DNA from: Oscillospiraceae bacterium
GTDB lineage: Bacteria > Bacillota > Clostridia > Oscillospirales > Oscillospiraceae
Direction of reading: 5' to 3'
Assembly (NCBI GenBank): GCA_017527825.1
Contig: JAFXPO010000047.1
Coordinates: 1 to 64,000 of the forward strand
Length of the DNA stretch: 64,000 bases
Made by a program: the position numbers and the translations under genes. The notes beneath the pieces were generated by a model, which did no database searches, was not told the origin of the DNA, and saw nothing but the letters and a program-made list of their open reading frames with translations. Shown here piece by piece: positions 10,207 to 26,087 of this stretch (position 1 is the stretch's first letter; every line of letters starts with the position of its first letter).

Positions 10207-11145
10207 TTATTGAATCGTCTCCGCCAGCTTGCAGAGACCGCTTTTCAGCAGTTGTATTTTTTCCGGGTCGACGTCCGCGGCTTTCGCCGGACGCACGATC
10301 CTGCCGAAGCCCCGGAGTGTCTCGCAGGCACAGATGGCGAACGAGTGTCGGAACGCCCGGTTGTCCGAGGGGTAGTAGATCAGCCCGTCGGTTTTCAGGA
10401 AGGTCGTGGTGTGTTCGCCGTTTTCAAAGCTGTCTAAGATCGCGTCGAGCACCTCGCCGTCCCAGCGGCTGTACTTGTTCGGCAGGATCAGCAGCTCGCC
10501 GCCCTCGGCGACGCAGTTTACATTGATGACGGTCTTTTCCTTGGCGGAGGGATACCGCGCACGAAATCCCTTCGCGCCGGAGAGTCCCCCGAAGCCGCCG
10601 TCGAGAAACGCGAACGCCACCTTGTCGCGGCAGCCCGGCGTCAGCGCGGCTGCCGTTTCCAGCAGCGCCGCGACGCCGGAGGTGTTGTCGTTAAGGTTGC
10701 GCGTCTCGCTGGGGCCGAAGCGCAGGTATAAAAGCGCCGTCACCATCAGAATAAGGAACAGCGGCAGCGTCAGGTATGGCGCGTTGAACGGAAACGTCAG
10801 CGCAAAGGACAGCACAAAGCTGCCCGCCAGCACCAGCACCGGCGTGAGCGCCAGATAGAGAAACGCCGTCAGCGGCCGCGTCGGCATATAGAACGGCGGC
10901 AGCAGAGTGCGGACGCCCGTGTCATAGTGCGCGACGAGGAGCAGCTTCGCCTTCTCCGGGTCGCCCACGACCACGTTGGTCACGTCACCGCCGATGCGCA
11001 GCGCCGTCTCCCGGTGCTGGAGCTTCGGCTGGTAGCCCAGCTCCCGCAGCGTACCCACCAGCCAGAGGCGGAATTTTTCCTTTTCCGTCGGCTTGCGTCG
11101 AACGGGAAACTCCCGCTGCACGCGGTCGGCAAATCGATTCATCAT
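10207..11145 (-). CDS. M28-like membrane peptidase homologue, catalytic Glu motif missing
   Basis: A 312-residue protein. The AHYDTG and NLNDNTSGVAALLE segments match the first metal-binding His/Asp and the bridging Asp of M28 zinc aminopeptidases. Two long hydrophobic segments (about residues 95-140) are inserted between these motifs. The family's F-D-G-E-E-x-G-L motif, which supplies the general-base Glu and a metal ligand, reads LDGGFGGLSGAKGF here, so both Glu residues are absent. It may be an inactive or repurposed homologue. Start overlaps the recN stop (ATGATG; TGA), so translation is coupled; the next ATG at 11142 is equally possible. Confidence 0.7.
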   Translation of the reverse strand: MMNRFADRVQREFPVRRKPTEKEKFRLWLVGTLRELGYQPKLQHRETALRIGGDVTNVVVGDPEKAKLLLVAHYDTGVRTLLPPFYMPTRPLTAFLYLALTPVLVLAGSFVLSFALTFPFNAPYLTLPLFLILMVTALLYLRFGPSETRNLNDNTSGVAALLETAAALTPGCRDKVAFAFLDGGFGGLSGAKGFRARYPSAKEKTVINVNCVAEGGELLILPNKYSRWDGEVLDAILDSFENGEHTTTFLKTDGLIYYPSDNRAFRHSFAICACETLRGFGRIVRPAKAADVDPEKIQLLKSGLCKLAETIQ

Positions 11146-12836
11146 CTGCCCCCCGTCAAGGTCTTTTTGAACGTCTCCGCGCCGGTGAGCAGTTCCTCCG
11201 CGCCGCGGAGCATGGTCTCGCTGACACTCTCGCCGCCGGTGAGCCGTGCCAGCTCTCTGGCGCGGCCGTCGCGGCTGAGCACTTGCACACGGGTATGCGT
11301 GCGACCATTCTCCTCGCCCTTTTCCACGCAGAAATGGGTGTCCGCCATTGCCGCGAGCTGCGGCAGATGCGTCACGCACAGCACCTGCTTTTCCCGGGAA
11401 ACCTTGGCGAGCTTCTCCGCGACGCGCTGGGCGGCGCGACCCGATACGCCGGTGTCAACCTCGTCGAACACCATGGTCATGACGCTCTCCTGCGCGGCAA
11501 AAACGTTCTTCATCGCCAGCATGATGCGCGCCAGTTCGCCGCCGGAGGCAATCTTATGGATGGGCTTCAGCTCCTCGCCCACGTTGGCGGACATGAGGAA
11601 GCGCACCACGTCCATGCCCGTCGCGTCCGGTTCCTGCTCGGCAAAATCAATGGCAAAGCGCACCTTGGGCATGTCCAGTTCCGCAAGCTCGCGGGCGATC
11701 TCCGCTTCCAGCGTCTCCGCCGCCGCCTTGCGCGCGTCGGAAAGCTCTCGCGCCGCCTGAGCGACGGCGGCGTTCTGCTCGTCCAGCTTCTTTTGCAGCT
11801 GGGCAATGCGGTCGTCGGCGTACTCGATGCGATCCAGCTCATCCTTCGAACGGTCGAGGAACGCGAGCATCTCCTCCACCGTGCCGCCGTATTTCTTTTT
11901 GAGCCGGTAGAGCTGATCCAGGCGGCTCTCCGCCGCGTCCAGCTCCTGCGGGGAAAAGTCGAATCCCTCCCGCTTGTCGCGGATCGTCATGGCGAGGTCA
12001 TACGCCTCGCTGTACAGCGCCTCCAGGCGTTCGGAAAGATCGATAAACTCGTCGCCCAGACTCCGCAGACCGTGGATCGCGTCCAGCGCCTGCTTGATGG
12101 CGGGTGCCGCGCCGCCGGACTCGTCTCCGCCGTTGAGGCAGTAGTCCGCCTCGGTGACGGCGGCGATGAACTTTTCGCCGTTACGAAGAATGTTGCGCCG
12201 TGCCAACAGCGCCTCCTCCTCACCCTCCTTGAGCTCCGCGCGCTCCAGTTCCTCGATCTGATGCCGGAGCGTGTCAACGCGGCGCGCCTTCTCCGCCTCG
12301 TCCATTCGCAGCGCGTCGATCTCACGGCGGATGGCGGACAGCGCGGCGTAGCGCTTGCCATAGTCCTCCAGCCGCGCGTCCATGTGAGCGAAACGGTCAA
12401 GATACAGCAGATGCTGCGTCTCGTCCAGCAGCGCCGTACCGTCGTGCTGACCGTGAATGTTCAGCAGCGCCGAGCCGATCGCCTTGAGCTGCGCCACGGT
12501 TATCGGTCGTCCGTTGGCGCGGCAGACGTTTTTCCCGTCCGCCGACAGCTCGCGCGAGAGCAGCAGCGAGCCGTCCTCCTCCGGCGCGACGCCGTTTTCG
12601 GCAAGCGCCGGGATGCCTGCGTCCACACCGTCAAAGGCAGCGCTGACAAACGCCTTTCCCGCGCCGGTGCGGATCAAGTCGCGGGAGGTGCGCTGCCCCA
12701 GCACCGCGCCGAGGGAGTCAATTACGATGGATTTGCCCGCGCCGGTCTCACCGGTGAGCGCGTTAAAGCCTCGCTCAAAGGCGATGTCCGCCTGCTCGAT
12801 GAGCGCAATATTCTCTATGTGCAGTAATTGCAGCAT
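11142..12836 (-). CDS. recN: DNA repair protein RecN
   Basis: A 564-residue SMC-like ATPase that gathers broken DNA ends for recombination repair. Walker A is GETGAGKS at about residues 31-38. The central part is long coiled-coil (residues 150-370). The ABC signature and Walker B are in the C-terminal half (ASGGELARIMLAMKNVFAAQ; TMVFDEVDTGVSGRAAQ), followed by VTHLPQLAAMADTHF, the H-loop. Length is normal. It lies 9 bases after argR, the same order as in Bacillus (argR-recN), and overlaps the M28-like gene. Confidence 0.97.
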   Translation of the reverse strand: MLQLLHIENIALIEQADIAFERGFNALTGETGAGKSIVIDSLGAVLGQRTSRDLIRTGAGKAFVSAAFDGVDAGIPALAENGVAPEEDGSLLLSRELSADGKNVCRANGRPITVAQLKAIGSALLNIHGQHDGTALLDETQHLLYLDRFAHMDARLEDYGKRYAALSAIRREIDALRMDEAEKARRVDTLRHQIEELERAELKEGEEEALLARRNILRNGEKFIAAVTEADYCLNGGDESGGAAPAIKQALDAIHGLRSLGDEFIDLSERLEALYSEAYDLAMTIRDKREGFDFSPQELDAAESRLDQLYRLKKKYGGTVEEMLAFLDRSKDELDRIEYADDRIAQLQKKLDEQNAAVAQAARELSDARKAAAETLEAEIARELAELDMPKVRFAIDFAEQEPDATGMDVVRFLMSANVGEELKPIHKIASGGELARIMLAMKNVFAAQESVMTMVFDEVDTGVSGRAAQRVAEKLAKVSREKQVLCVTHLPQLAAMADTHFCVEKGEENGRTHTRVQVLSRDGRARELARLTGGESVSETMLRGAEELLTGAETFKKTLTGGR

Positions 12837-12845
12837 ATCGATCCC

Positions 12846-13310
12846 TTACTTCTGAAACTTCTTTTGCATGGACGCGATCTCGGCGCATATCTCCGCCGCG
12901 CTTTCCACGTCGCGCATGACGATCAGCACCGTGTCGTCGCCGGCGATGGAGCCAACCATCTGCGCCAGCTCCATGCCGTCAAACGCAGCGCCCGCCGCGC
13001 CGGCAAGGCCCGGCATGGTCTTGAGCACCACGATGTTCTGCGCGTAATCGACGCTCAAGATGCTCTCGCGGAGGATGGTCTGAAGCCGGTCGGCAAAGTT
13101 GAGCTTGGTTTTGCGCGCCGAAACCGCGTAGCGGTATCGCCCGCCGCCCGCCGGCTCCTTGATGAGATGCAGCTGCTTGATGTCGCGGGATATGGTCGCC
13201 TGGGTGCTGTTGATGCCGCGCTCGCGCAGCCGGTCGATCAGCTGCTCCTGCGTCTCAATGGGTTCCCCCGCAATGATGGCGAGGATCATTTCCTGTCTGT
13301 CATTTTTCAT
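12846..13310 (-). CDS. argR: Arginine repressor ArgR/AhrC
   Basis: A 154-residue transcription regulator that senses arginine and controls arginine biosynthesis and breakdown. The N-terminal winged helix carries STQATISRDIKQLHLIK, the usual recognition helix. The C-terminal oligomerisation and arginine-binding domain shows GSIAGDDTVLIVMRD, a small variant of the family GTIAGDDT motif. It overlaps the end of nadK by 11 bases and is followed closely by recN, the standard Firmicute context. Confidence 0.95.
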   Translation of the reverse strand: MKNDRQEMILAIIAGEPIETQEQLIDRLRERGINSTQATISRDIKQLHLIKEPAGGGRYRYAVSARKTKLNFADRLQTILRESILSVDYAQNIVVLKTMPGLAGAAGAAFDGMELAQMVGSIAGDDTVLIVMRDVESAAEICAEIASMQKKFQK

Positions 13311-14181
13311 TTTCCGTCAATCCTCCCAGCATTTTTCTTTGCAGCACTTCGCAAAAGCTTCGATTCTCCAGCCGTACCAGCTTGGTGTCGTATCGCGACC
13401 GGGTAATCTCCACCGAATCGCCGTGGCGCAGCGAGAACGCGCGTCCGCCGTCCACTGACAGCACCACCGGCTTATAGCCCGTCGCCTCGGTCTGCACCGT
13501 GATGGTGCGCTCCGGCGCGAGGACGTAAGAGTTGGCGTGGACGCTGTGGGCGCAGATGGGGCTGACCACGAAATTCCGCGCCGTAGGCTCCACCACGGGT
13601 CCGCCCGCGCTGAGGGAGTACGCCGTCGAACCGGTGGGACTCGCCACCACCACGCCGTCGCCCGCCACGTCCACCAGCTTGCCGTTTTCGGTAAAAATAT
13701 GCAACCGGATGACACGGGACACGTTGCCGCGGGCGATGAGCGCCTCGTTGAGCGCGAGGCTGGAATAGATCACGCGACCCTCCCGCCGCACGCACACGTC
13801 CAGCATCATACGGCTCTCGACAATGTAATTCTGCTCCGCGAGCTGGCGCAGCTTGGGCAGTTCCTTTTGCTCCAGCTCCGCCATGAAACCGAGGCTGCCG
13901 AGGTTGATGCCCAGCACCGGAATATCCTTGTGCGCGGCGGTTTTGGACAGATGCAGGATCGTCCCGTCGCCGCCGAAGGCGATCAGCATATCCGCGCCGC
14001 GCAGCTCCTGCTGGAGCGGGCGAATCTCCAATCCGTAGCCCTCCGGCTCCTCGCTGCCGCGAAACGGGATGCAAACCACGTTCGGACACTTGATCTCATC
14101 CAGAATCGCCTTCGCCTCCTTTGCGACGCGCAGCTCCGTATCGCGGTAGGGGTTGGGGCAAAGAATCACTTTTCTGAGCAA
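13300..14181 (-). CDS. nadK: NAD kinase
   Basis: A 293-residue enzyme that phosphorylates NAD to NADP. The GGDGTILHL motif (ATP/NAD site), NLGSLGFMAEL, NEALI and SPTGSTAYSLSAGGP are all present, and length is typical. No ATG fits. I choose the TTG at 14179-14181 because AAGGTGAG lies 6 bases upstream and tlyA ends 14 bases before; the protein then begins MLRKVILCPNP. A GTG 30 bases further downstream would be less well placed. It sits between tlyA and argR in the apparent operon. Confidence 0.93.
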   Translation of the reverse strand: MLRKVILCPNPYRDTELRVAKEAKAILDEIKCPNVVCIPFRGSEEPEGYGLEIRPLQQELRGADMLIAFGGDGTILHLSKTAAHKDIPVLGINLGSLGFMAELEQKELPKLRQLAEQNYIVESRMMLDVCVRREGRVIYSSLALNEALIARGNVSRVIRLHIFTENGKLVDVAGDGVVVASPTGSTAYSLSAGGPVVEPTARNFVVSPICAHSVHANSYVLAPERTITVQTEATGYKPVVLSVDGGRAFSLRHGDSVEITRSRYDTKLVRLENRSFCEVLQRKMLGGLTENEK

Positions 14182-14194
14182 TTGACTCACCTTC

Positions 14195-14998
14195 TTATGT
14201 GTCCAATTCGGCGTGGGACGCCTCCACCAGCGCGGCAAGATCAAACATCCGCCCGGTTTGCGCGCCTTTTTCCAGATAGCCTAAATATTCGATGTTCCCC
14301 TCCGGTCCGCGGATGGGAGAAAACGTCAAGTCCAGTACGCCGAATCCACTGTCGGCGGCGTGTTCGAGGAAGTGCTCCAGCACCTCCCGATGCACCGACG
14401 GGTCGCGGACGACGCCCTTCTTGCCCACTTTCTCCCGTCCCGCCTCAAACTGGGGCTTGACGAGACAGGCGACATGCCCGCCGTCCTTCAATAAGCCGTT
14501 CACCGCGGGCAGGATCAGCTTGAGCGAGATGAACGACACGTCGATGGACGCGAAGTCCAGCTCGTCCGGGATTTGCTCATGGGTGAGGTAGCGGGCGTTG
14601 GTGCGCTCCATACATACCACGCGTCCGTCGCTGCGAAGCTTCCAGTCCAGCTGACCGTAACCCACGTCCACAGCGTAAACCTTTACCGCTCCGTTTTGCA
14701 GCATGCAGTCGGTAAACCCGCCGGTGGAGGCGCCGATGTCCGCGCAGACGCTGCCCGTGAGCGTCAGGTCAAATTCACGCATCGCCTTTTCCAGCTTCAG
14801 CCCGCCGCGGCTCACATAGCGCAGCGTACTGCCGCGCACCTCGATCTTCGCCTCCGGCGTCACGGCGAACCCCGCCTTGTCCACCTTCTGCTCATTGACG
14901 TACACGATACCGCTCATGATGGTGGCTTGCGCCTTCTGCCGGGTCTCGGCAAGACCGCGTTCGACCAGCGCCACATCCAGCCTTTGCCTGTCGCTCAT
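14195..14998 (-). CDS. tlyA: TlyA-family rRNA 2'-O-methyltransferase
   Basis: A 267-residue protein: an N-terminal S4 RNA-binding domain (RLDVALVERGLAETRQKAQATIMSGIVYVNEQ) followed by an FtsJ-type SAM methyltransferase domain with GASTGGFTDCMLQNGA at about residues 84-99 and a later LVKPQFEAGREKVGKKGVVRD segment. In well-studied members it methylates 16S and/or 23S rRNA; the hemolysin name is historical. It overlaps dxs by four bases (ATGA) and precedes nadK, the usual Firmicute order. Confidence 0.93.
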   Translation of the reverse strand: MSDRQRLDVALVERGLAETRQKAQATIMSGIVYVNEQKVDKAGFAVTPEAKIEVRGSTLRYVSRGGLKLEKAMREFDLTLTGSVCADIGASTGGFTDCMLQNGAVKVYAVDVGYGQLDWKLRSDGRVVCMERTNARYLTHEQIPDELDFASIDVSFISLKLILPAVNGLLKDGGHVACLVKPQFEAGREKVGKKGVVRDPSVHREVLEHFLEHAADSGFGVLDLTFSPIRGPEGNIEYLGYLEKGAQTGRMFDLAALVEASHAELDT

Positions 14999-16842
14999 CG
15001 AACCACCTCCCGTGCTTTCGCCGCGATGGACGCGGCGTCCAGGTGAAACCTCTCCCGCAGGCGTTTGGAATCGCCGTGGGGCGGGAAATTCTTATTCAAA
15101 TTGCACAAATACAGCTTCTCCAGCGGAGCACCCTCCTCGGTCAGAATCGCCGCAAGGCGCTGACCGACGCAGCCGACGCTGGTGCACTCCTCCGCGACAA
15201 CAAGTCTCCTTGTACCCGAAAAGGTCTTACGCACGTCCTCATCCACAAAGGGGGAGATGCGGTTGACCTTGATGACCCGCGCCGCGATGCCGTCCTTTTC
15301 CAGCAGCTCCGCCGCGTCCAGCACCGGCGCGATCATCGTGCCGTAAGCACAGAGGGTCACATCGTTCCCCGCGCGCAGCTCCGCAAACGCGCCGTCACCG
15401 CTGTCCTCACGATAGCGTTCCTCCCCGCCGCGGGGATATCGGATCGCCACGGGACCGTCGATCTCAAAAACGGCGCGGCGCAGCATGGAGCGCAGCTCCG
15501 CGAAGCTGGACGGACACAGCACCGTCATATTCGGAATATCGGACAAAAAGGTAGCGTCAAAGATGCCGTGATGGGTCTCCCCGTCCGCGCCGACAAAGCC
15601 CGCGCGATCCACGGCGAACACCACATGGAGGTTGGACAGCGCCGTGTCATGGATGAGCTGGTCATACGCGCGCTGCAAAAACGTTGAGTACACGGCGAAC
15701 ACAGGAATCATGCCCTGCTTCGCCATGCCCGCCGCCATTGCCGCCGCCTGCGCTTCCGCGATTCCCACGTCGAAGAAGCGGTTCGGGTAGCGGGCTGCAA
15801 AATCCGTCAGCCCCGTGCCGTCCTCCATTGCCGCCGTGATGGCGCAGACGCGCCTGTCCCCTGCCGCCAGCTCACAGAGCGTTTTGCCAAACACGGAGGA
15901 AAAGCTCTCGCCGCTCTCCCGAATTCTGCCGGTCAGCGCGTCGAAGGCGCCCACGCCGTGCCACTTGCCCGGCTCTTGCTCCGCCGGGGGATAGCCCTTA
16001 CCCTTGACGGTGCGCACATGCAGCAGCACCGGGCAGTTCAGCTCCTTTGCCCAGCGCAGCGCGGTCTCCACCTGCTCCTCGTTATGCCCGTTGATGGGTC
16101 CGACATAGGTGAAGCCCATATCCTCAAACAAGGTCGCGTTGGGCAGCAGCGCGTTTTTGACGCCGGTTTTGACCAGATGGCTGAAGTCCCGCAGCGCGCG
16201 CCCTACCTGGTTGACGCCCAGCGCGCGGTTGTATGCCTTTTTGAATTCGTAATACGCCGGCTTGGTGCGAAGGCGGGACAGATGCTTGCTCACCGCGCCC
16301 ACGTTGCGGGAGATGGACATGCCGTTGTCGTTGAGAATGACGATCAGCGGCTCGCCCGACGCGCCCGCGTTGTTGAGTCCCTCGTAGGCAAGACCGCCGG
16401 AGAGCGCGCCGTCGCCGATGAGCGCCAGCACGGAATAGTCCTCCCCCAGCAGCGTCCGCGCCCGCGCCATGCCCAGCGCCACGGAGACGGAGTTGGACGC
16501 GTGACCCGCCACAAAGGCGTCGTGCACGCTCTCATTGGGCTTGGGGAAGCCGGACAGTCCGCCGTACTGCCGCAGCGTCGGAAACTGTTCCCGCCGCCCG
16601 GTCAGCACCTTGTGGGCGTAGCATTGATGTCCCACGTCGAACACCAGACGATCCCGCGCGGTATCAAACACGCGATGGATCGCCACCGTCAGCTCCACCG
16701 CGCCGAGGTTCGAGGCAAGATGCCCCCCGGTCTCGGCAACGCTGTGGAGCAGGAATGTATGCAGTTCTTCACACAGCCGCTCCGTCTCCGCTCGGCTGAG
16801 CGCCTTGACGTCCGCAGGGCTGTGAATTTGTTCTAAGATCAA
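14995..16842 (-). CDS. dxs: 1-deoxy-D-xylulose-5-phosphate synthase
   Basis: A 615-residue thiamine diphosphate enzyme that joins pyruvate and glyceraldehyde-3-phosphate, the first step of the MEP isoprenoid pathway. The TPP motif is GDGALSGGLAYEGLNNAG...NDN, and DVGHQCYAHKVLTGRR, DVGIAEAQAAAMAAGMA and DRAGFVGADGETHHG are family signatures. The start is a TTG at 16840-16842, with GAGGG 7 bases upstream; the ATG at 16878 would overlap the upstream gene and lacks an SD. It lies 10 bases after the OapA-like gene. Together with ispA it forms the isoprenoid part of the run. Confidence 0.96.
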   Translation of the reverse strand: MILEQIHSPADVKALSRAETERLCEELHTFLLHSVAETGGHLASNLGAVELTVAIHRVFDTARDRLVFDVGHQCYAHKVLTGRREQFPTLRQYGGLSGFPKPNESVHDAFVAGHASNSVSVALGMARARTLLGEDYSVLALIGDGALSGGLAYEGLNNAGASGEPLIVILNDNGMSISRNVGAVSKHLSRLRTKPAYYEFKKAYNRALGVNQVGRALRDFSHLVKTGVKNALLPNATLFEDMGFTYVGPINGHNEEQVETALRWAKELNCPVLLHVRTVKGKGYPPAEQEPGKWHGVGAFDALTGRIRESGESFSSVFGKTLCELAAGDRRVCAITAAMEDGTGLTDFAARYPNRFFDVGIAEAQAAAMAAGMAKQGMIPVFAVYSTFLQRAYDQLIHDTALSNLHVVFAVDRAGFVGADGETHHGIFDATFLSDIPNMTVLCPSSFAELRSMLRRAVFEIDGPVAIRYPRGGEERYREDSGDGAFAELRAGNDVTLCAYGTMIAPVLDAAELLEKDGIAARVIKVNRISPFVDEDVRKTFSGTRRLVVAEECTSVGCVGQRLAAILTEEGAPLEKLYLCNLNKNFPPHGDSKRLRERFHLDAASIAAKAREVVR

Positions 16843-16852
16843 GACGATTCCC

Positions 16853-17401
16853 TCATTTTTTCCCGATCCGCAGCACACGCATCACCTTTGCTGTGCGATA
16901 CACCACGTCCGTGCTGTGGCTGAGCGCCAGCCGCTTGCCGATCGCCTTTCCTCCGATGGTCAGGCCGGAGATCAACGCCGTCACGGCGATCGAGATCAGA
17001 ATATTTTTAGTGTTGAAGGTCGATTGCAAACGCAGTACGATCACCGCCGCGGTGGAGCCGCTGACGATGCCGCAGATGTCGCCCACCACGTCGTTGCAGA
17101 AGCTGGAAACCTTTTCCGCGTTTTTCAGCAGGAACAGTGCCTCCTTCGCACCCTTTTCCCGGTGGGACGCCATAGAGTGAAAGGGTTTCGCGTCCGCCGC
17201 TGTCACCGCGACGCCGATGACGTCGAACACGATGCCCAGCAGAATGAACGCCAGCAGCACCGCCACCGCCAGCACATAGCCCGCGTCCTCCAGCACAACG
17301 CCGGAGGCAAAGCTCAGCAGCGCGGAGAGGAACACGGACATGAGAAAGATGTGGACGACCCAATGCCAATAACTTCGAGGCTTAGCCTCTTCTTTTTTCA
17401 T
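16853..17401 (-). CDS. OapA-like four-helix membrane protein (OLE RNA partner)
   Basis: A 182-residue protein with four predicted membrane segments (about residues 12-38, 42-69, 107-125 and 134-159) and a basic C-terminus (KAIGKRLALSHSTDVVYRTAKVMRVLRIGKK). Identification rests mainly on context: it is encoded just downstream of a ~650-nt structured RNA, between ispA and dxs, exactly where OLE RNA and OapA are found in other Firmicutes. OapA anchors the OLE ribonucleoprotein in the membrane and is tied to Mg2+ tolerance and to cold and alcohol stress in Bacillus halodurans. Start ATG at 17401 has AAAGGAG 6 bases upstream. If the RNA call is wrong it remains an unassigned membrane protein. Confidence 0.72.
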   Translation of the reverse strand: MKKEEAKPRSYWHWVVHIFLMSVFLSALLSFASGVVLEDAGYVLAVAVLLAFILLGIVFDVIGVAVTAADAKPFHSMASHREKGAKEALFLLKNAEKVSSFCNDVVGDICGIVSGSTAAVIVLRLQSTFNTKNILISIAVTALISGLTIGGKAIGKRLALSHSTDVVYRTAKVMRVLRIGKK

Positions 17402-17533
17402 GGTTGCTCCTTTTTCGCGCACGCAGGCGCGAAATGAATCTGCTCGTTTTTTCTGACGACATGTGCGCCAGAAAAAATACTCTGCGCGAAGCGCCCGTAC
17501 ACCATCGGCGTACGGGAAGCGCAGCGATGTTTT

Positions 17534-17567
17534 TTCAAAAGCGAGGACTGCGTCCTCTTTTTTTGAA
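17534..17567 (-). terminator. 3' hairpin of the OLE-like RNA (possible attenuator before oapA)
   Basis: GAGGAC-GCA-GTCCTC is enclosed by TTCAAAA/TTTTGAA and followed on the minus strand by TTTTG. Two more hairpins (CCCGTAC/GTACGGG and TTTTTTCTG/CAGAAAAAA) fill the stretch to the oapA start. It may be a partial terminator or a processing site. Confidence 0.4.
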
Positions 17568-17569
17568 GC

Positions 17570-18226
17570 TAAAACAGCGGCAGCAAAGCAGGGTAATCCT
17601 ACGGCTTTGGTCGGGTTGGATTTCCCCGCGGCCCGCCTCCCGTTGCCGGTCAGGCGGTTCCCCTTTGAGGGCCGTGCCGCGCCGTCGCCGACGCGCGGTA
17701 CCCGATTGCCACTTAGTCCGCACTGTAACCCCTGCCCTGCCCCAATGGACAGCCTAGGCGATTTCCGCCACAGTCAAACCGTCTCTTAGCCTCTTTTGCA
17801 GCGCCGGTTTCACGGAGCGATCGCCCTCTCCCCTGGCCGGGGGATTCGGTTGTATTCTCCGATTCGCCGACGCCACGCAAGGCAGGCTACTCCGCGCACA
17901 GCGTTCACGGCACAAACGCCGATTAGCACCGCGACGCGGGTTCATCGCCCGTTCCGTACCAGGGTCGCTTACCAACACGGGAGTACGCCCGGCACGCAAA
18001 CGGGTCTCCACGGAAACAGGGTCGTGACCCCCATGCCATTAGGGGACGCCCGGAGACCGCAGGCTCAGCTTCCGGTAACGAAAGGCATAGCCTCCCTTCA
18101 GCACCCACCCCAAACTGGGCGTAAGAAGCAGGCACCAAAGGTTTCACAGTTGTGCCCTTTAAAGGATTTTTAGGCCCTTCTTAGGAGACGGCAGATCTGA
18201 CTAGGATACTGCGCCGCTGTTCAGCA
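17570..18226 (-). ncRNA. OLE (ornate large extremophilic) RNA candidate
   Basis: About 655 nt with no convincing coding frame, lying between ispA and an OapA-like gene, the known OLE locus. The ends are defined by a long-range helix: CAGCGGC-G-CAG at the 5' end (plus 18209-18219) pairs with CTGCCGCTG at the 3' end (17575-17583). Inside are many perfect helices, such as GGTCTCC/GGAGACC (18003-18009/18052-18058) enclosing GGGTC-AC-GACCC and a CCCC/GGGG pair, CCGCGC/GCGCGG (17677-17682/17693-17698), and a long-range GCAGGG/CCCTGC (17730-17735/17588-17593). The size matches the ~600-nt Bacillus halodurans OLE. It has its own promoter. I could not recall enough of the OLE consensus to confirm it base by base; a covariance-model search would settle it. 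Confidence 0.75.
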
Positions 18227-18347: not shown

Positions 18348-19229
18348 TTATTTTTCCCGCGTAGCAAGATTGCGCGCCACGGTGATGAGAAACTCCGTCT
18401 CTTCCATTCCGCTCAGCGCTGAGATTGCCGCATCCGTCAGCCGCCTGACCTCCGCCTTGCAGCCGTCGACGCCCAGCAGGTCGACGTAGGTGGTCTTGCC
18501 CTCCTCGGCGTCCGAGCCGATGGGCTTGCCGAAGGTGATCTCATCGCCGATGACGTCCAGCAGATCGTCCTGAATCTGGAATGCAAGCCCCAGACGCGCA
18601 GCATACATCCGCGTCGCCGCGCGGACCTCCGCAGGCGCGTCAGCCGCCGCGCAGCCCAGCTCCGCCGCGCATTGGATCATCATGCAGGTCTTTTTTTCGT
18701 GCAGCAGCCGCAGTGACTGCTCATCCCTGCCAAAGTCGGTCAGGTCCAGCACCTGCCCCGCCACCATGCCGTCCGCGCCGCTGGCACGCGCAAGTGCGGC
18801 GGTCGCCTCGACCTTCGCTTTTGCGTCCAGACGCGGCGCCTCCGCAATCAGGCGGTACGCCTCCGGCTGGAGCGCGTCCCCCGCCAGCGTCGCCATGGTC
18901 TCACCGTAGACAACGTGATTCGTGGGCTTGCCGCGGCGCAGCGTGTCATTGTCCATGCAGGGCAGATCGTCGTGGATCAGCGAGTAAGTATGCACCAGCT
19001 CCAGCGCGCAGGCAAAGGGCAGCGCGTCGCGCCAATCGCGGCTGCCGCCCAGACGCGCCACCTCCAGCGCCAGCACCGGGCGAAGCCGCTTGCCGCCGGA
19101 AAGAACACTGTAGCGCATAGACTCATACAGCGTTTTCCACGGCACGCTGCCGATGAACAGCCCATCCAGATACTCCTCCACCGCGGCGCGGTATTCCTCG
19201 TACCTCCGGGCAAACAGCTTATCGTCCAT
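18348..19229 (-). CDS. ispA: Farnesyl/geranyl diphosphate synthase
   Basis: A 293-residue all-helical polyprenyl synthase that builds C10/C15 diphosphates from IPP and DMAPP. The first Asp-rich motif is HDDLPCMDND, the second is QIQDDLLDVIGD. GGKRLRPVL is the usual IPP-binding segment near the N-terminus. The start at 19229 overlaps xseB by 11 bases and has GGCGGAAGG upstream; the frame open to 19331 is longer than the family needs. Chain length cannot be read reliably, but the size and position beside xseB and dxs are those of ispA. Confidence 0.95.
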   Translation of the reverse strand: MDDKLFARRYEEYRAAVEEYLDGLFIGSVPWKTLYESMRYSVLSGGKRLRPVLALEVARLGGSRDWRDALPFACALELVHTYSLIHDDLPCMDNDTLRRGKPTNHVVYGETMATLAGDALQPEAYRLIAEAPRLDAKAKVEATAALARASGADGMVAGQVLDLTDFGRDEQSLRLLHEKKTCMMIQCAAELGCAAADAPAEVRAATRMYAARLGLAFQIQDDLLDVIGDEITFGKPIGSDAEEGKTTYVDLLGVDGCKAEVRRLTDAAISALSGMEETEFLITVARNLATREK

Positions 19230-21633: not shown

Positions 21634-22179
21634 TCAATTTACCTCTAAAATCTTGATTGCGCTGACCGGAAGCCCCGTTTCCTGTCGCACCACGTCGGTG
21701 ATCTTCGCCACGTCTTCGGTCTGAAGCCCGTCGTCCGATGACGCGACGACCACGCTGGCGCTGTCCTCGGAGAGAAACACCACGCAGTCGGTGTAGCCCT
21801 TGGCGGTGATCATGTTCTCGATCTGCGCCTCCGCCATGGTGTTACTTGCCATCACCTCGATGCTGTGCGCAACCTCGCCCATGACCTGCTCGTCAGCGGT
21901 TTCATCGGCGGTCGCCTCTTGCAGCAGCGCCAACGCGCTGTCCCGCGCCTGCTGGCGGGAGAGCCGCGCGGCGGCAAAGTAGTCGGATGACGTGCTCTCC
22001 GCCGCAGGCGCGGCTTCGACGGTCTCCTCGGTTTCCGGCGCGATGACCTCCGTCGCCTGCCCCAGCACCTTGCCGCTGTTCTGCGTGCTCTCGGCGTAGC
22101 GGCTGTTGAGCACGATCGCCGCTACCACCAGCACCAGCACCGCGCCCACCACGGCATTTCGTTTCCAAAGCTTGTTCAT
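21634..22179 (-). CDS. spoIIIAH: Stage III sporulation protein AH
   Basis: A 181-residue protein with one N-terminal membrane segment (residues 9-25), an acidic Glu/Thr-rich linker and a C-terminal YscJ/FliF-like ring-building domain (ARLSRQQARDSALALLQEAT...VFLSEDSASVVVASSDDGLQTEDVAKITDVVRQETG). It is made in the mother cell and binds SpoIIQ from the forespore to form the channel between the two compartments. SD AGGAGG lies upstream of the ATG at 22179; the longer frame to 22230 lacks one. It is the last gene of the spoIIIA operon. Confidence 0.93.
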   Translation of the reverse strand: MNKLWKRNAVVGAVLVLVVAAIVLNSRYAESTQNSGKVLGQATEVIAPETEETVEAAPAAESTSSDYFAAARLSRQQARDSALALLQEATADETADEQVMGEVAHSIEVMASNTMAEAQIENMITAKGYTDCVVFLSEDSASVVVASSDDGLQTEDVAKITDVVRQETGLPVSAIKILEVN

Positions 22180-22231
22180 GTTCCTGTCCCTCCTGAAAAA
22201 AACTAAGATTTTGGGTAATGAATGCTTCATG

Positions 22232-22579
22232 TCACGGCCTCCCCCGGATAACGGCGATCTTGTCCGCGCTCAGACCGGTCAAGGCGCGCACCGCCTGCGT
22301 CAGTTCCAGGCGCACAGCGGCACTGTCTCCGCCCTCGCAGACGATCACAGCGCCTGTCCAGCGCTGCGTCGCGGCGTCCCCGGTGAGCATCAGCCGCAGC
22401 CGTCCCACGCCGTCGAAGGCGGCGAGCGTCGCCTCCATCTCGGACTGGACAATGCCGCGCGCGTCCGGCGTCTCCCGCTTCGCCCCGCCGCGGGGCAGCA
22501 GCATCAGGCACACACCCAGAAGCGCCACGGCAACGGCGTACTTGTACTTTCCCGCCAGTTGTTTTATGACTCGATCCAT
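22232..22579 (-). CDS. spoIIIAG: Stage III sporulation protein AG, short form
   Basis: A 115-residue protein: one membrane segment (about residues 13-29) and a compact ring-building domain (RLMLTGDAATQRWTGAVIVCEGGDSAAVRLELTQAVRALTGLSADKIAVIRG). Bacillus subtilis SpoIIIAG is about twice as long and has a large beta-insertion in this domain that forms the ring wall; that insertion is missing here. The identity rests on operon position and the C-terminal pattern. The start overlaps spoIIIAF by 16 bases. Confidence 0.85.
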   Translation of the reverse strand: MDRVIKQLAGKYKYAVAVALLGVCLMLLPRGGAKRETPDARGIVQSEMEATLAAFDGVGRLRLMLTGDAATQRWTGAVIVCEGGDSAAVRLELTQAVRALTGLSADKIAVIRGRP

Positions 22580-23028
22580 TGTTGATGCTCCTTTGCTATG
22601 CCTAGCTCCCGCTCCACGAAATCCGCCACCGTATCGCTGTACGCGCCGCGCAGCGTTACGCCTGTCGGAAAGGGGACGCCGTCGCGGCTCTCCACCGTGA
22701 CCGTCGCGCGTACCCCCGCGCCCAAGCTCCCGGCTTTGTCCTCAATATATGATGCAAGTCCTGTGGCTATGCCGTTCGCGAGCGCATTTTCCTCCGTGGT
22801 ACGCAGAGATTGTTCCGCCTGCGCCAGCGCCTCGCGATAGCCGCTGTGCGGCGTGAGGTCGGAAAGCTCCAAGGCGCTCAGCGGACGCAGCACAGCGCAG
22901 AGAATCAGCAGGGCGCCGGTGAATCGCACAACGGCGCGAAAGCTCCCCTCCGGGCTGACCTGCGCGGCGATGCTGACCAGCAGCGCACAGGCAATCACGC
23001 CCAGCAGCCATTGGCGAAAAAAATCCAT
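22564..23028 (-). CDS. spoIIIAF: Stage III sporulation protein AF
   Basis: A 154-residue protein with two N-terminal membrane segments (LLGVIACALLVSIAAQV; VRFTGALLILCAVLRPLSAL) and a soluble C-terminal ring-building-like domain (AGVRATVTVESRDGVPFPTGVTLRG...FVERELGI). The start at 23028 has GGAGGG upstream; the frame open to 23247 is inside spoIIIAE and is rejected. It is part of the mother-cell feeding-tube complex. Confidence 0.9.
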   Translation of the reverse strand: MDFFRQWLLGVIACALLVSIAAQVSPEGSFRAVVRFTGALLILCAVLRPLSALELSDLTPHSGYREALAQAEQSLRTTEENALANGIATGLASYIEDKAGSLGAGVRATVTVESRDGVPFPTGVTLRGAYSDTVADFVERELGIAKEHQQWIES

Positions 23029-23039
23029 CTGTGTCCCTC

Positions 23040-24080
23040 CTACGCTGTTACGACGCTCGCCGCCACCAGCAGCGCCACCAGCAAGACCAGCGCACAGGTC
23101 GCCGTCATGGCAAAGACCAGCGCGAACGCGCCGCCCAGCCTGTCGAGGTACTCGCCCAGCGCCTTGCTGCCCACAAGTCCCGCCGCGAACGCCGCCAATT
23201 GATACAGCAGGAACTGTATACCCAGCCGCAGCAGCGGCATGAGGCACACCGCCCCGATCGCCAGCACGCCCACGGCGCCCACTGTGCCGCGCAGCGTTCC
23301 CGCCGCCGCCAGCACGCTCTCCGTCATCTCCGAGATCATACCGCCCACAATGGGGATGGCGCCGGACACCGCCATCTTCGTCACCCGGACAGCCGTGCGG
23401 TCAGCGGAGCCGGTCAGCACCCCGGCAACGGCAAGATAGCCGGCAAACGCCGCGACCAGCGCGGTCAGTCCGCCGGTGACCAGTTTCTTCAAGCCGTCCG
23501 AGAGGATATCCAGCCGGCTCTCCTCCAACATCGCTCCCGCCGCGGATGCGGCAATGTAGCAGTAAACCAGCGGCAGCAGGAGCCGTTCGATCACGCTGCT
23601 GAGCGCCTCGCAGACCATCAGCGTCGTCACCTGCCAGACCCCCGCGGTGGACACAAAGCCGCCCGCCGCCATCGCCGCCGCCAGCGTCGGGAGAAGCAGC
23701 TTCGCGAGCGTTCCCAGTTCGTCCACCGTCTGCGCGCCGAGTCCGATCAACGCGCGCAGGTCGCCTGCGGCAAGCGTCGTCACCGCCAGCACGCCGCACC
23801 ACGGCACATAGCGCGTCTCTCCCGCGCCATCGCCCAGACACTCCGCCGCGCCGCACAGCAGCGCCGTCAGCGTCAGCAGCACCGCGTCGCGTACACCGGC
23901 GCGGAGCAATTCCGTCGCCGCGTCCCGCGCGGACTGTATAAGCCATGCCGCGCCGTCGGCGATGGAACCATCCTCCACTGCCGCGCGCATGCCCTCCGGC
24001 AGCGTCTCGGCAAGGGGCAGCGCGTATGCCGTGGTCGTGAGCAGCAGGATCGCCGGTACAATCATCCACATACGTCTCAT
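23040..24080 (-). CDS. spoIIIAE: Stage III sporulation protein AE
   Basis: A 346-residue polytopic membrane protein. It has an N-terminal signal-like segment (MIVPAILLLTTTAYALPLAE) and about six to eight further hydrophobic helices, with the family segment VTGGLTALVAAFAGYLAVAGVLTG and the conserved SGAIPIVGGMISEMTESVLAAAG. The start overlaps the spoIIIAD stop (ATGA). It probably forms the membrane base of the A-Q channel. Confidence 0.93.
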   Translation of the reverse strand: MRRMWMIVPAILLLTTTAYALPLAETLPEGMRAAVEDGSIADGAAWLIQSARDAATELLRAGVRDAVLLTLTALLCGAAECLGDGAGETRYVPWCGVLAVTTLAAGDLRALIGLGAQTVDELGTLAKLLLPTLAAAMAAGGFVSTAGVWQVTTLMVCEALSSVIERLLLPLVYCYIAASAAGAMLEESRLDILSDGLKKLVTGGLTALVAAFAGYLAVAGVLTGSADRTAVRVTKMAVSGAIPIVGGMISEMTESVLAAAGTLRGTVGAVGVLAIGAVCLMPLLRLGIQFLLYQLAAFAAGLVGSKALGEYLDRLGGAFALVFAMTATCALVLLVALLVAASVVTA

Positions 24081-24466
24081 AGCCACCCCCGGATCAGGTC
24101 CACCACCGCATGAACCAACGGCATCGCACAGCCGAGGGCGCAAAACGCGCCCGCCGTCTCGGTCATCCGCGCCAGTGCGCTCTGCCCCGCGTCGGCGCAC
24201 AGTGCCGACGCCACGCGGGTGATGAGCGCCGCGGCAATCACCTTCAGCAGCGGCAGGAACAGCGCCGGAGAAAGTCCCGTCAGCGCGATCAGCTCCTCGC
24301 CCATTGCCATGGCGTCCGACGCCGCGCTCAGCAGCAGCGCACCGCCGGTCAACGCCGCCGCCAGCGTCAGCAGCAGCGCGAACACCGGCTCATCCCGCTT
24401 GAGCAGCGTCGCCGCCGCCGCGGTCACGAGGCACAGCCCCACAGCCTTGCACAGCATTTCCATCAT
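24077..24466 (-). CDS. spoIIIAD: Stage III sporulation protein AD
   Basis: A 129-residue membrane protein with four hydrophobic helices (AVGLCLVTAAAATLLK; FALLLTLAAALTGGALLLSA; FLPLLKVIAAALITRVASALC; ETAGAFCALGCAMPLVHAVVDLI). Length and order between AC and AE are standard. It overlaps AC and AE by four bases each, indicating tight translational coupling. Confidence 0.92.
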   Translation of the reverse strand: MMEMLCKAVGLCLVTAAAATLLKRDEPVFALLLTLAAALTGGALLLSAASDAMAMGEELIALTGLSPALFLPLLKVIAAALITRVASALCADAGQSALARMTETAGAFCALGCAMPLVHAVVDLIRGWL

Positions 24467-24660
24467 GAGAACCCAAAGAGCGTGCGGATCAGATCAAACA
24501 GCGAGCTGATCTCCCGCACCAGCAGCATCATGGTCGCCACCAGTCCCGCAAGACTCACCAGCATCGCCTGATCCGGCCGGTCGGAGCGGATCAGCAGCTG
24601 ATTGAGCACCGCCACCACGATGCCGACGGCGGCGATACGGAACACCAAATCAATATCCAT
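24463..24660 (-). CDS. spoIIIAC: Stage III sporulation protein AC
   Basis: A 65-residue protein with two membrane helices (FRIAAVGIVVAVLNQLLI; QAMLVSLAGLVATMMLLV), the typical small SpoIIIAC. AC and AD resemble phage or export channel components and probably form part of the pore. It overlaps spoIIIAD by four bases. Confidence 0.92.
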   Translation of the reverse strand: MDIDLVFRIAAVGIVVAVLNQLLIRSDRPDQAMLVSLAGLVATMMLLVREISSLFDLIRTLFGFS

Positions 24661-24681
24661 GTACGTTCACCTGTATCCCGT

Positions 24682-25164
24682 TCAAAGCAGCATCAGCGCC
24701 AGCAGCGCTCCCGCGCCAAGACACAGCGCCGACACCAGCCGTTCCTTTTGCGTGCGCTGCGCGTCGATCGCGTCCGCGGCGCGGCGAAGCTGCGACGCCG
24801 CCAGCGCCAGCGCTCCGCAGACCGTGCGCTCGTCCCCTGTAAGCCGCGCGCCCATCTGCGCGACGGTTTCCCGCTCCTCCGGCAAAAGCGGCAGCTCCGC
24901 CGCCGCCGTGCGCCACGCCTGGGGCAATTCGGCGTATTGCAGTTCCCGTGTCACCGCCGCGAAAAAACGGTCCGCCGCGCCGTGTGGCCGGCGCAGCAGG
25001 ATCGGCAGTGGCGTGAGCAGTGTTCGCACCTCCGCTTCCATCCCCTCGAACGCTGACGCGAGGGCGCGGCGCATTCGCTGCGCGGCGCGATCCGTTTCCA
25101 GCAGCGCTCTTCTTGTCAGCAGCGCCGAGGCGAGGATCAAGCCCGCGCCAAACCATCGGAGCAT
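24682..25164 (-). CDS. spoIIIAB: Stage III sporulation protein AB
   Basis: A 160-residue protein with an N-terminal membrane segment (RWFGAGLILASALLTRRALL), a helical middle related to type II secretion F proteins (RTLLTPLPILLRR...ELPQAWRTAAAELPLLPEERETVAQMGARLTGDERTV) and a C-terminal membrane anchor (LCLGAGALLALMLL). The start at 25164 overlaps spoIIIAA by 28 bases; the frame open to 25740 is a shadow of spoIIIAA. Confidence 0.9.
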   Translation of the reverse strand: MLRWFGAGLILASALLTRRALLETDRAAQRMRRALASAFEGMEAEVRTLLTPLPILLRRPHGAADRFFAAVTRELQYAELPQAWRTAAAELPLLPEERETVAQMGARLTGDERTVCGALALAASQLRRAADAIDAQRTQKERLVSALCLGAGALLALMLL

Positions 25165-26087
25165 GGGATGCCCTCCACTGTGTAGGTCCGTGCGCCGCCC
25201 TCGCAACCGATTACCACCGCGCGTGAAAAAACCTCCGCCCGGAGCAGTTCCCGCCACAGCGGTTTGCGTGAAAGCTCGCCGACCGTCGCGGCGTGGATAC
25301 TTGCCAGCAGCGCGACACCGCAATTCGCCGCCGCGCAGACCGCTTCCAAATCCGCGGTCGTCGCGATTTCGTCCACGGCGATGACCTGCGGCGTCATCGC
25401 GCGCAGCACCATCGGTATTCCCAGCGCCTTTGGGCAGCTGTCCAGCACATCCGTATGATTGCCCAGCTCCGTCTGGGGTCTGCCCCGATAGGACACCGCG
25501 ATCTCGCTGCGCTCGTCGATGACGGAAACTCGCAGCGCCTGATGCTCCGCGCTGCCCAGCGACAGGCAGCGGACCAAATCCCGCAGCAGCGTGGTCTTGC
25601 CCGCGCCGGGCGGCGAAAGGATCAGCGCGCTCTGTATGCGTCCCGCCGCGTCGAACAGCCGCGGCGCGATCTCCGCGCCGACGCCGACGCGTTCCGAGAC
25701 GATGCGCAGCGCAACGCCGGAGAAATCCTTCAAGCTGCACACCGCTCCGTCGCGCATCACCGCCGCACCGCAGACGCCGAGGCGAAAGCCGCCCCGCACG
25801 GCGAGGTATCCCTGTCGCAGCGCCTCCGCCGAGGCGTAGCGCGAGTATTCGGTCACACCCGCAATCATCCGCTCCAAATCCTCCGCCGTCACCAGCGCGT
25901 CCCGGTCGGCGGGGGCAGCGGAACGCTCTCCCTCGGCAGTCCGCACGGTCAGCGGCAAGCCGACGCGCAGCCGCAGCTCCTCCGCACGCGCCTTTTGCGC
26001 GTCGCTCAGCGCCAGCGCCGCGCGGCGCAGCCGCGGCGGCAGCAGCTCCGCCGCCTGCTCATATCGGCGGATTCGATCTCGTTCCAT
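25137..26087 (-). CDS. spoIIIAA: Stage III sporulation protein AA (secretion-type ATPase)
   Basis: A 316-residue ATPase related to type II/IV secretion motors. Walker A is LSPPGAGKTTLLRDL (around residue 161), followed by VIDERSEIA (Walker B region) and MTPQVIAVDEIAT with a His-containing switch (LLASIHAATVGEL). It powers the SpoIIIA-SpoIIQ channel. AAAGGAGG precedes the ATG, and a candidate sigma-E promoter is upstream. It is the first of eight complete spoIIIA genes. Confidence 0.95.
   Translation of the reverse strand: MERDRIRRYEQAAELLPPRLRRAALALSDAQKARAEELRLRVGLPLTVRTAEGERSAAPADRDALVTAEDLERMIAGVTEYSRYASAEALRQGYLAVRGGFRLGVCGAAVMRDGAVCSLKDFSGVALRIVSERVGVGAEIAPRLFDAAGRIQSALILSPPGAGKTTLLRDLVRCLSLGSAEHQALRVSVIDERSEIAVSYRGRPQTELGNHTDVLDSCPKALGIPMVLRAMTPQVIAVDEIATTADLEAVCAAANCGVALLASIHAATVGELSRKPLWRELLRAEVFSRAVVIGCEGGARTYTVEGIPCSDGLARA

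Follow-up and report, generated by a model that had tools for sequence, protein, structure and literature searches.

A full-length OLE RNA beside the gene for its membrane partner OapA in an Oscillospiraceae genome: an additional J5/6 helix, a conserved promoter palindrome and apparent absence of both genes from two members of the genus

Introduction

OLE RNAs belong to the largest conserved RNAs of bacteria that lack an assigned biochemical function. OLE RNA and the OLE-associated membrane protein A (OapA) assemble into a ribonucleoprotein at the membrane, which helps Halalkalibacterium halodurans against cold, alcohol, high Mg2+ and poor carbon sources (PMC9723947, PMC11332333). Cryo-EM structures of clostridial OLE revealed an RNA dimer (PMC12286853), and a transmembrane model has been proposed in which dimers would span the membrane (PMC12265935). 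Genes for isoprenoid synthesis, DNA repair and argR have been reported near ole (PMC12265935), and binding of ArgR to OLE has been mentioned as an unpublished result (PMC12265935, PMC12054373). A further partner protein, OapC, is present in about 45% of the OLE carriers (PMC11332333).

The similarity of OapA to CNNM domains is already published, as is a DxxxD motif that separates OapA from them (PMC11332333). Across about 17,000 Bacillota genomes, OLE is anticorrelated with the CNNM-type exporter MpfA (PMC11332333, Fernando and Breaker), with co-occurrence in some Bacillota, and the idea that the RNA stands in place of the CBS/CorC regulatory domains has been raised earlier (PMC11332333). Here, we analyse an OLE locus from the Oscillospiraceae and compare it to its relatives.

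Results

A full-length OLE RNA between ispA and oapA

We analysed a stretch of 64 kb (hereafter the window) for which an OLE RNA with an adjacent oapA gene had been predicted from the letters alone. When the window was scanned with Rfam, OLE was the sole match at the gathering threshold. The covariance model RF01071 (gathering score 50) matched the minus strand from 18233 to 17561 with 391.7 bits (E 1.4e-111), covering model positions 1–616 of 616. The RNA is single-copy in its genome and its transcript ends probably lie at about 18227 and 17570. Directly downstream on the same strand follows oapA (17401–16853). We consider it almost certain that the locus encodes OLE RNA in its full-length form together with OapA, its partner in the membrane, as the original prediction had proposed. 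The RNA is confirmed as an ordinary representative of a known class and is probably already inside the published large-scale OLE surveys.

The original prediction had also described an RNA of about 655 nt closed by a helix, and both were recovered. The two arms of this helix, P1, are CAGCGGC (18219–18213, minus strand) and GCCGCTG (17581–17575, minus strand). Among 69 aligned OLE sequences, 94.5% of the cells are paired, with compensatory changes at several positions (C-G/T-A/A-T and A-T/G-C). With one arm shifted by one or two columns, only 20–31% remained paired; at a shift of three columns pairing was still 74–85%, because the arms are internally repetitive.

The surrounding genes, all on the minus strand, are arranged in the order ispA, ole, oapA, dxs, tlyA, nadK, argR, recN. 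Upstream of ole lies ispA (18348–19226, start codon approximate), identified as farnesyl diphosphate synthase by NF045485. The first gene past oapA is dxs (14995–16842; TIGR00204, 661 bits; probable TTG start), followed by tlyA (14195–14998; TIGR00478), nadK (13300–14244; NCBIfam NAD kinase models with scores under their cut-offs), argR (12846–13310; PF01316 and PF02863) and recN (11142–12836; TIGR00634). The isoprenoid, argR and recN neighbourhood expected around ole is thus present, and the gene order agrees with the kinds of genes reported there (PMC12265935). The RNA had been placed in a 900-nt gap between ispA and dxs. Such a gap of about 0.95 kb does exist, between the end of ispA (18348) and the start of oapA (17401), but the interval from ispA to dxs is about 1.5 kb and contains both ole and oapA.

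Between ole and oapA, positions 17431–17540 hold a dispersed palindromic repeat that folds into strong hairpins. It has eight matches in its own genome, 13 in genome G011 and eight in G013, and none in G012 or G016. The nearest relatives of the host are uncultured Oscillospiraceae, of which several come from rumen and gut, and Oscillibacter sp. ER4 (Oscillospiraceae, gut), to which the host genus is close. Near the ole operon, the window contains spoIIIA genes (21634–26087; AA, AC and AE by NCBIfam, two of them under cut-off), which is consistent with the spore-forming host that had been suggested.

OapA has a predicted CNNM-like fold, and OapB but not OapC is found in the genome

The protein encoded next to ole had been described as a four-helix membrane protein. 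It has 182 amino acids, and its AlphaFold2 model (mean pLDDT 75.7) contains four long helices (residues 11–39, 42–68, 95–129 and 134–161). Its only Pfam domain is a weak sequence match to CNNM, with 25.6 bits just under the cut-off of 28.4. The DxxxD motif reads D104-V-V-G-D108, and both aspartates are invariant among 28 homologues. Searching the PDB by sequence gave no match, and the pairwise BLASTP comparison of MpfA to OapA was not significant. In contrast to these sequence searches, the five best PDB matches of the structural model are all transmembrane structures of CNNM/CorB/CorC proteins (Foldseek probability 0.97–1.00; E at least 0.015), with 7m1t, 7m1u and 7cfg at the top. The relation between OapA and MpfA is therefore visible only by profile and fold.

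Two further partner proteins had been suggested for a genome search, and one of them was detected. OapB is a 94-aa protein encoded between map and infA (E 2.2e-7 against the OapB entries in the PDB), and it occurs at the same place in those genus members that are readable there. OapC, a YbxF-type protein, was not found in the genome when searching by L7Ae family, by gene context and with a YbxF protein of the genus as query, the last of which gave no match. The sole L7Ae-family match is the paralogue YlxQ, encoded beside ylxR and nusA, and this gene context rules out YlxQ as OapC; the usual place of ybxF before rpsL holds a different gene. Of 18 genomes of the genus, four clearly have YbxF, and two of these four lack OLE; some of the other genomes are incomplete. 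As OapC is found in less than half of all carriers, its absence is no argument against OLE here. A loss of the k-turn along with OapC was ruled out, since the genome analysed here and an OapC carrier (L015) do not differ in the k-turn strand.

An additional covarying helix between P5 and P6

Aligned to the covariance model, the RNA has an insertion of 33 nt between P5 and P6 relative to RF01071 (18093–18061, minus strand), which is predicted to form a hairpin (AGGCT...AGCCT). The family-wide stem at this position is 91.5% paired among 46 Oscillospiraceae sequences, with many compensatory changes; the window's own longer insert lies outside this set and is identical in position and flanks. Sliding the stem gave at most 47% pairing, and shuffling the 3' halves gave a mean of 81.7% and a maximum of 84.7%. 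In the clade of the window, the insert is longer (a segment of 49–53 nt) than in other Oscillospiraceae and its internal fold is less certain, whereas in most other sampled orders and families the region spans 17–20 nt and has no stem. Thus, in the OLE RNAs of Oscillospiraceae, P5 and P6 are separated by a covarying additional helix that is missing from the Rfam model.

The ole promoter, its palindrome and the loci without ole

The original prediction of a separate promoter for the RNA was borne out. On the minus strand, a -35 element TTGAAT (18262–18257) and a -10 element TATAAT (18239–18234) are separated by 17 nt. This is the only sigma-70-like site found between positions 16800 and 18500, which reach from the dxs start to the ispA end (shuffled sequences contain 0.3 on average), and it is conserved at related loci. 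The -35 is overlapped by a near-perfect palindrome of 30 bp, TGAATATTC-GAGGTATACCTT-GAATATTCA (18281–18252, minus strand), a candidate operator or activator site. Promoters in the genus and in several neighbours carry arms of the form TGAATATTC...GAATATTCA or GTATATAC...GTATATAC with a phasing of about 10 bp.

We searched the genomes with R1, a model built from ole promoter sequences. The palindrome of the window is the top match in its genome, and most genus members have a single strong site; many of these matches are training sequences, and those in G001, G002, G004, G009 and G012 are independent. Apart from the reading of the palindrome on the opposite strand, all other matches have an E-value of about 0.05 or worse. 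As R1 gives one strong site per genome and only weak ones besides, no regulon could be built for the element from the genome-wide matches. The ole promoter thus carries a conserved palindromic element with one strong copy per genome.

Two members of the genus, G004 and G012 (both 98% complete), have neither a detectable OLE nor a detectable OapA. Each encodes one MpfA-type protein, with the CNNM, CBS and CorC domains checked in G004, where the gene lies upstream of rpoB. In each of these two genomes, which were left out when R1 was built, the best R1 match lies directly 5' of dxs (E 2.2e-5 in G004 and 2.7e-4 in G012). From ispA onwards, the sequence runs through a spacer and the promoter with the element to dxs (G004:C1:142593-144548, L249; G012:C34:64884-66800, L250). 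In the Dxs tree, the two genomes are sisters (support 1.0) and nested among OLE carriers. The simplest reading is a single deletion of ole and oapA in this lineage that left the promoter serving dxs. The retained promoter suggests that, in the window, the ole promoter also drives the dxs operon.

What the palindrome is for can be read in two ways. It might be merely an AT-rich UP element or -35 context and no regulator site, which we consider a serious possibility that falls somewhat short of even. The overlap with the -35 in this genus fits such an explanation, as does the missing second strong genomic copy, which leaves no regulon to back a transcription factor. However, at three loci (L047, L050 and L053) the element lies entirely upstream of a separate -35. 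Furthermore, it has fixed G and C positions and symmetric arms, and it is retained where ole has been lost.

Among known regulators, we compared the element to the argC and argG regions of the genus. The argG promoter region of the same genome has a canonical-looking ARG box (TGCAT-GAAT-ATTCA; TGCATGAATATTCA before the argG promoter at L133, argG of G000), and the 10-mer TGAATATTCA occurs both there and in the ole element. The ole element contains no TGNAT-N4-ATNCA box, and ArgR as the owner of the palindrome is not supported.

OLE and MpfA exclude each other among the relatives

Among 60 relatives, including the genome analysed here, 32 have only OLE, 23 have only an MpfA-type CNNM protein (counted as a strong match in a protein of MpfA size), five have neither and none has both. 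Fisher's exact tests, which make no full correction for phylogeny, gave 4e-12 for all genomes, 3e-9 for those at least 90% complete and 2e-7 for one genome per genus with the genus of the window omitted (16 versus 21). This confirms the published anticorrelation at close range and is not a new finding. The genomes with neither OLE nor a strong CNNM protein are G028, G029, G033, G036 and G040, of which G033, G036 and G040 are 55–80% complete.

The exclusion could also reflect shared ancestry or habitat instead of functional replacement. The genomes are related, and the replacement within the genus is a single event. We nevertheless regard this explanation as unlikely, given that the overlap remains zero with one genome per genus and the window's genus omitted, that both states are found intermixed across genera within one family and order, and that the anticorrelation is published for a far broader sample of Bacillota (PMC11332333).

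Discussion

We asked what OLE and OapA might do at this locus. Transcription would start at the TTGAAT/TATAAT promoter, with the OLE RNA in the 5' portion of an ole-oapA-dxs-tlyA-nadK-argR-recN transcript, from which it would be released by processing. The released RNA might then dimerise and sit on OapA in the membrane, where it would stand in for the CBS/CorC regulatory part that MpfA has in the cytosol. Physiologically, control of a CNNM-like Mg2+ (metal-ion) function is the most likely role, because OapA is CNNM-like and because OLE-OapA and MpfA never co-occur among the relatives, including the replacement within the genus; we put this role at about an even chance. The loss within the genus, where it supports this role, counts as one evolutionary event. 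We infer that OLE-OapA covers the job of MpfA at least in part. On the other hand, the phenotypes known from H. halodurans (alcohol, cold, carbon source) are wider, so that Mg2+ alone may be too narrow a role. The five relatives with neither system indicate that neither is strictly required.

An alternative is a role in cis, in which OLE as a 5' leader controls the read-through into dxs-tlyA-nadK-argR-recN and the association with OapA is secondary. The single promoter detected in the region, and the same promoter directly before dxs in the two genomes without OLE, do place ole between the operon promoter and the first enzyme gene. OLE is, however, conserved far above what is expected for a simple leader. 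We judge a cis role to be highly improbable, as OLE works with OapA at the membrane (PMC12265935), ole-oapA was supplied from a plasmid in the H. halodurans work (PMC12054373), and dxs was retained when ole and oapA disappeared jointly.

Returning to the role in Mg2+ control, a broader joint reading would be that OLE-OapA and MpfA are true alternatives in Oscillospiraceae with G004 and G012 as a natural knockout, that OLE of this clade was rebuilt around the loss of OapC with a longer J5/6 helix adjacent to the k-turn, and that the palindrome is the site of a dedicated regulator. As a whole, this combination seems doubtful to us. If true, the regulator at the palindrome would tie isoprenoid synthesis to the expression of OLE.

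Three observations are worth following: the loss within the genus with a retained promoter, the helix at J5/6, and the promoter palindrome with its one strong copy per genome. The running text of the OLE papers searched mentions none of the three. The OLE-OapA and MpfA states within one genus offer a close comparison for the idea that OLE-OapA works on Mg2+ as MpfA does. Both the additional J5/6 helix and the lack of OapC concern the k-turn, where protein partners bind, and may reveal dispensable parts of the OLE complex.

Comparison with known systems

With known OapA proteins, the protein analysed here shares its length, the four-helix membrane topology, the invariant DxxxD, the position beside ole and the weak CNNM similarity, and we saw no notable difference. 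Compared to the Mg2+ exporters of the MpfA/CorB/CNNM type, OapA is predicted from its model to have their transmembrane fold, whereas it lacks the CBS and CorC_HlyC domains. These exporters occupy genomes complementary to those of OLE-OapA, and the MpfA genomes studied here are without OLE.

The RNA shares with the OLE RNAs of H. halodurans and of C. acetobutylicum and C. botulinum, the latter two known from cryo-EM structures, the full architecture from P1 to the 3' domain. Like known members of RF01071, it has the A-rich P4 loop (CUAAAAAU), the GCCCA and UGGCA loops of P5/P6, P7 and P8, the GGCC-containing P9 loop, and oapA immediately 3'. It differs from them in its length (about 660 nt compared to 577–630), in the extra covarying J5/6 helix and in the k-turn strand, which reads ACU-GUGA instead of the consensus AUC-GAUGA; in addition, no OapC gene was detected in this genome. 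The locus resembles OLE variant 1 (TANB77) and variant 2 (RF39), which also combine gut Bacillota, an altered OLE and missing Oap proteins (Fernando and Breaker 2024). However, these variants shorten or lose P7–P9, whereas here P7–P9 are intact and a helix is added at J5/6.
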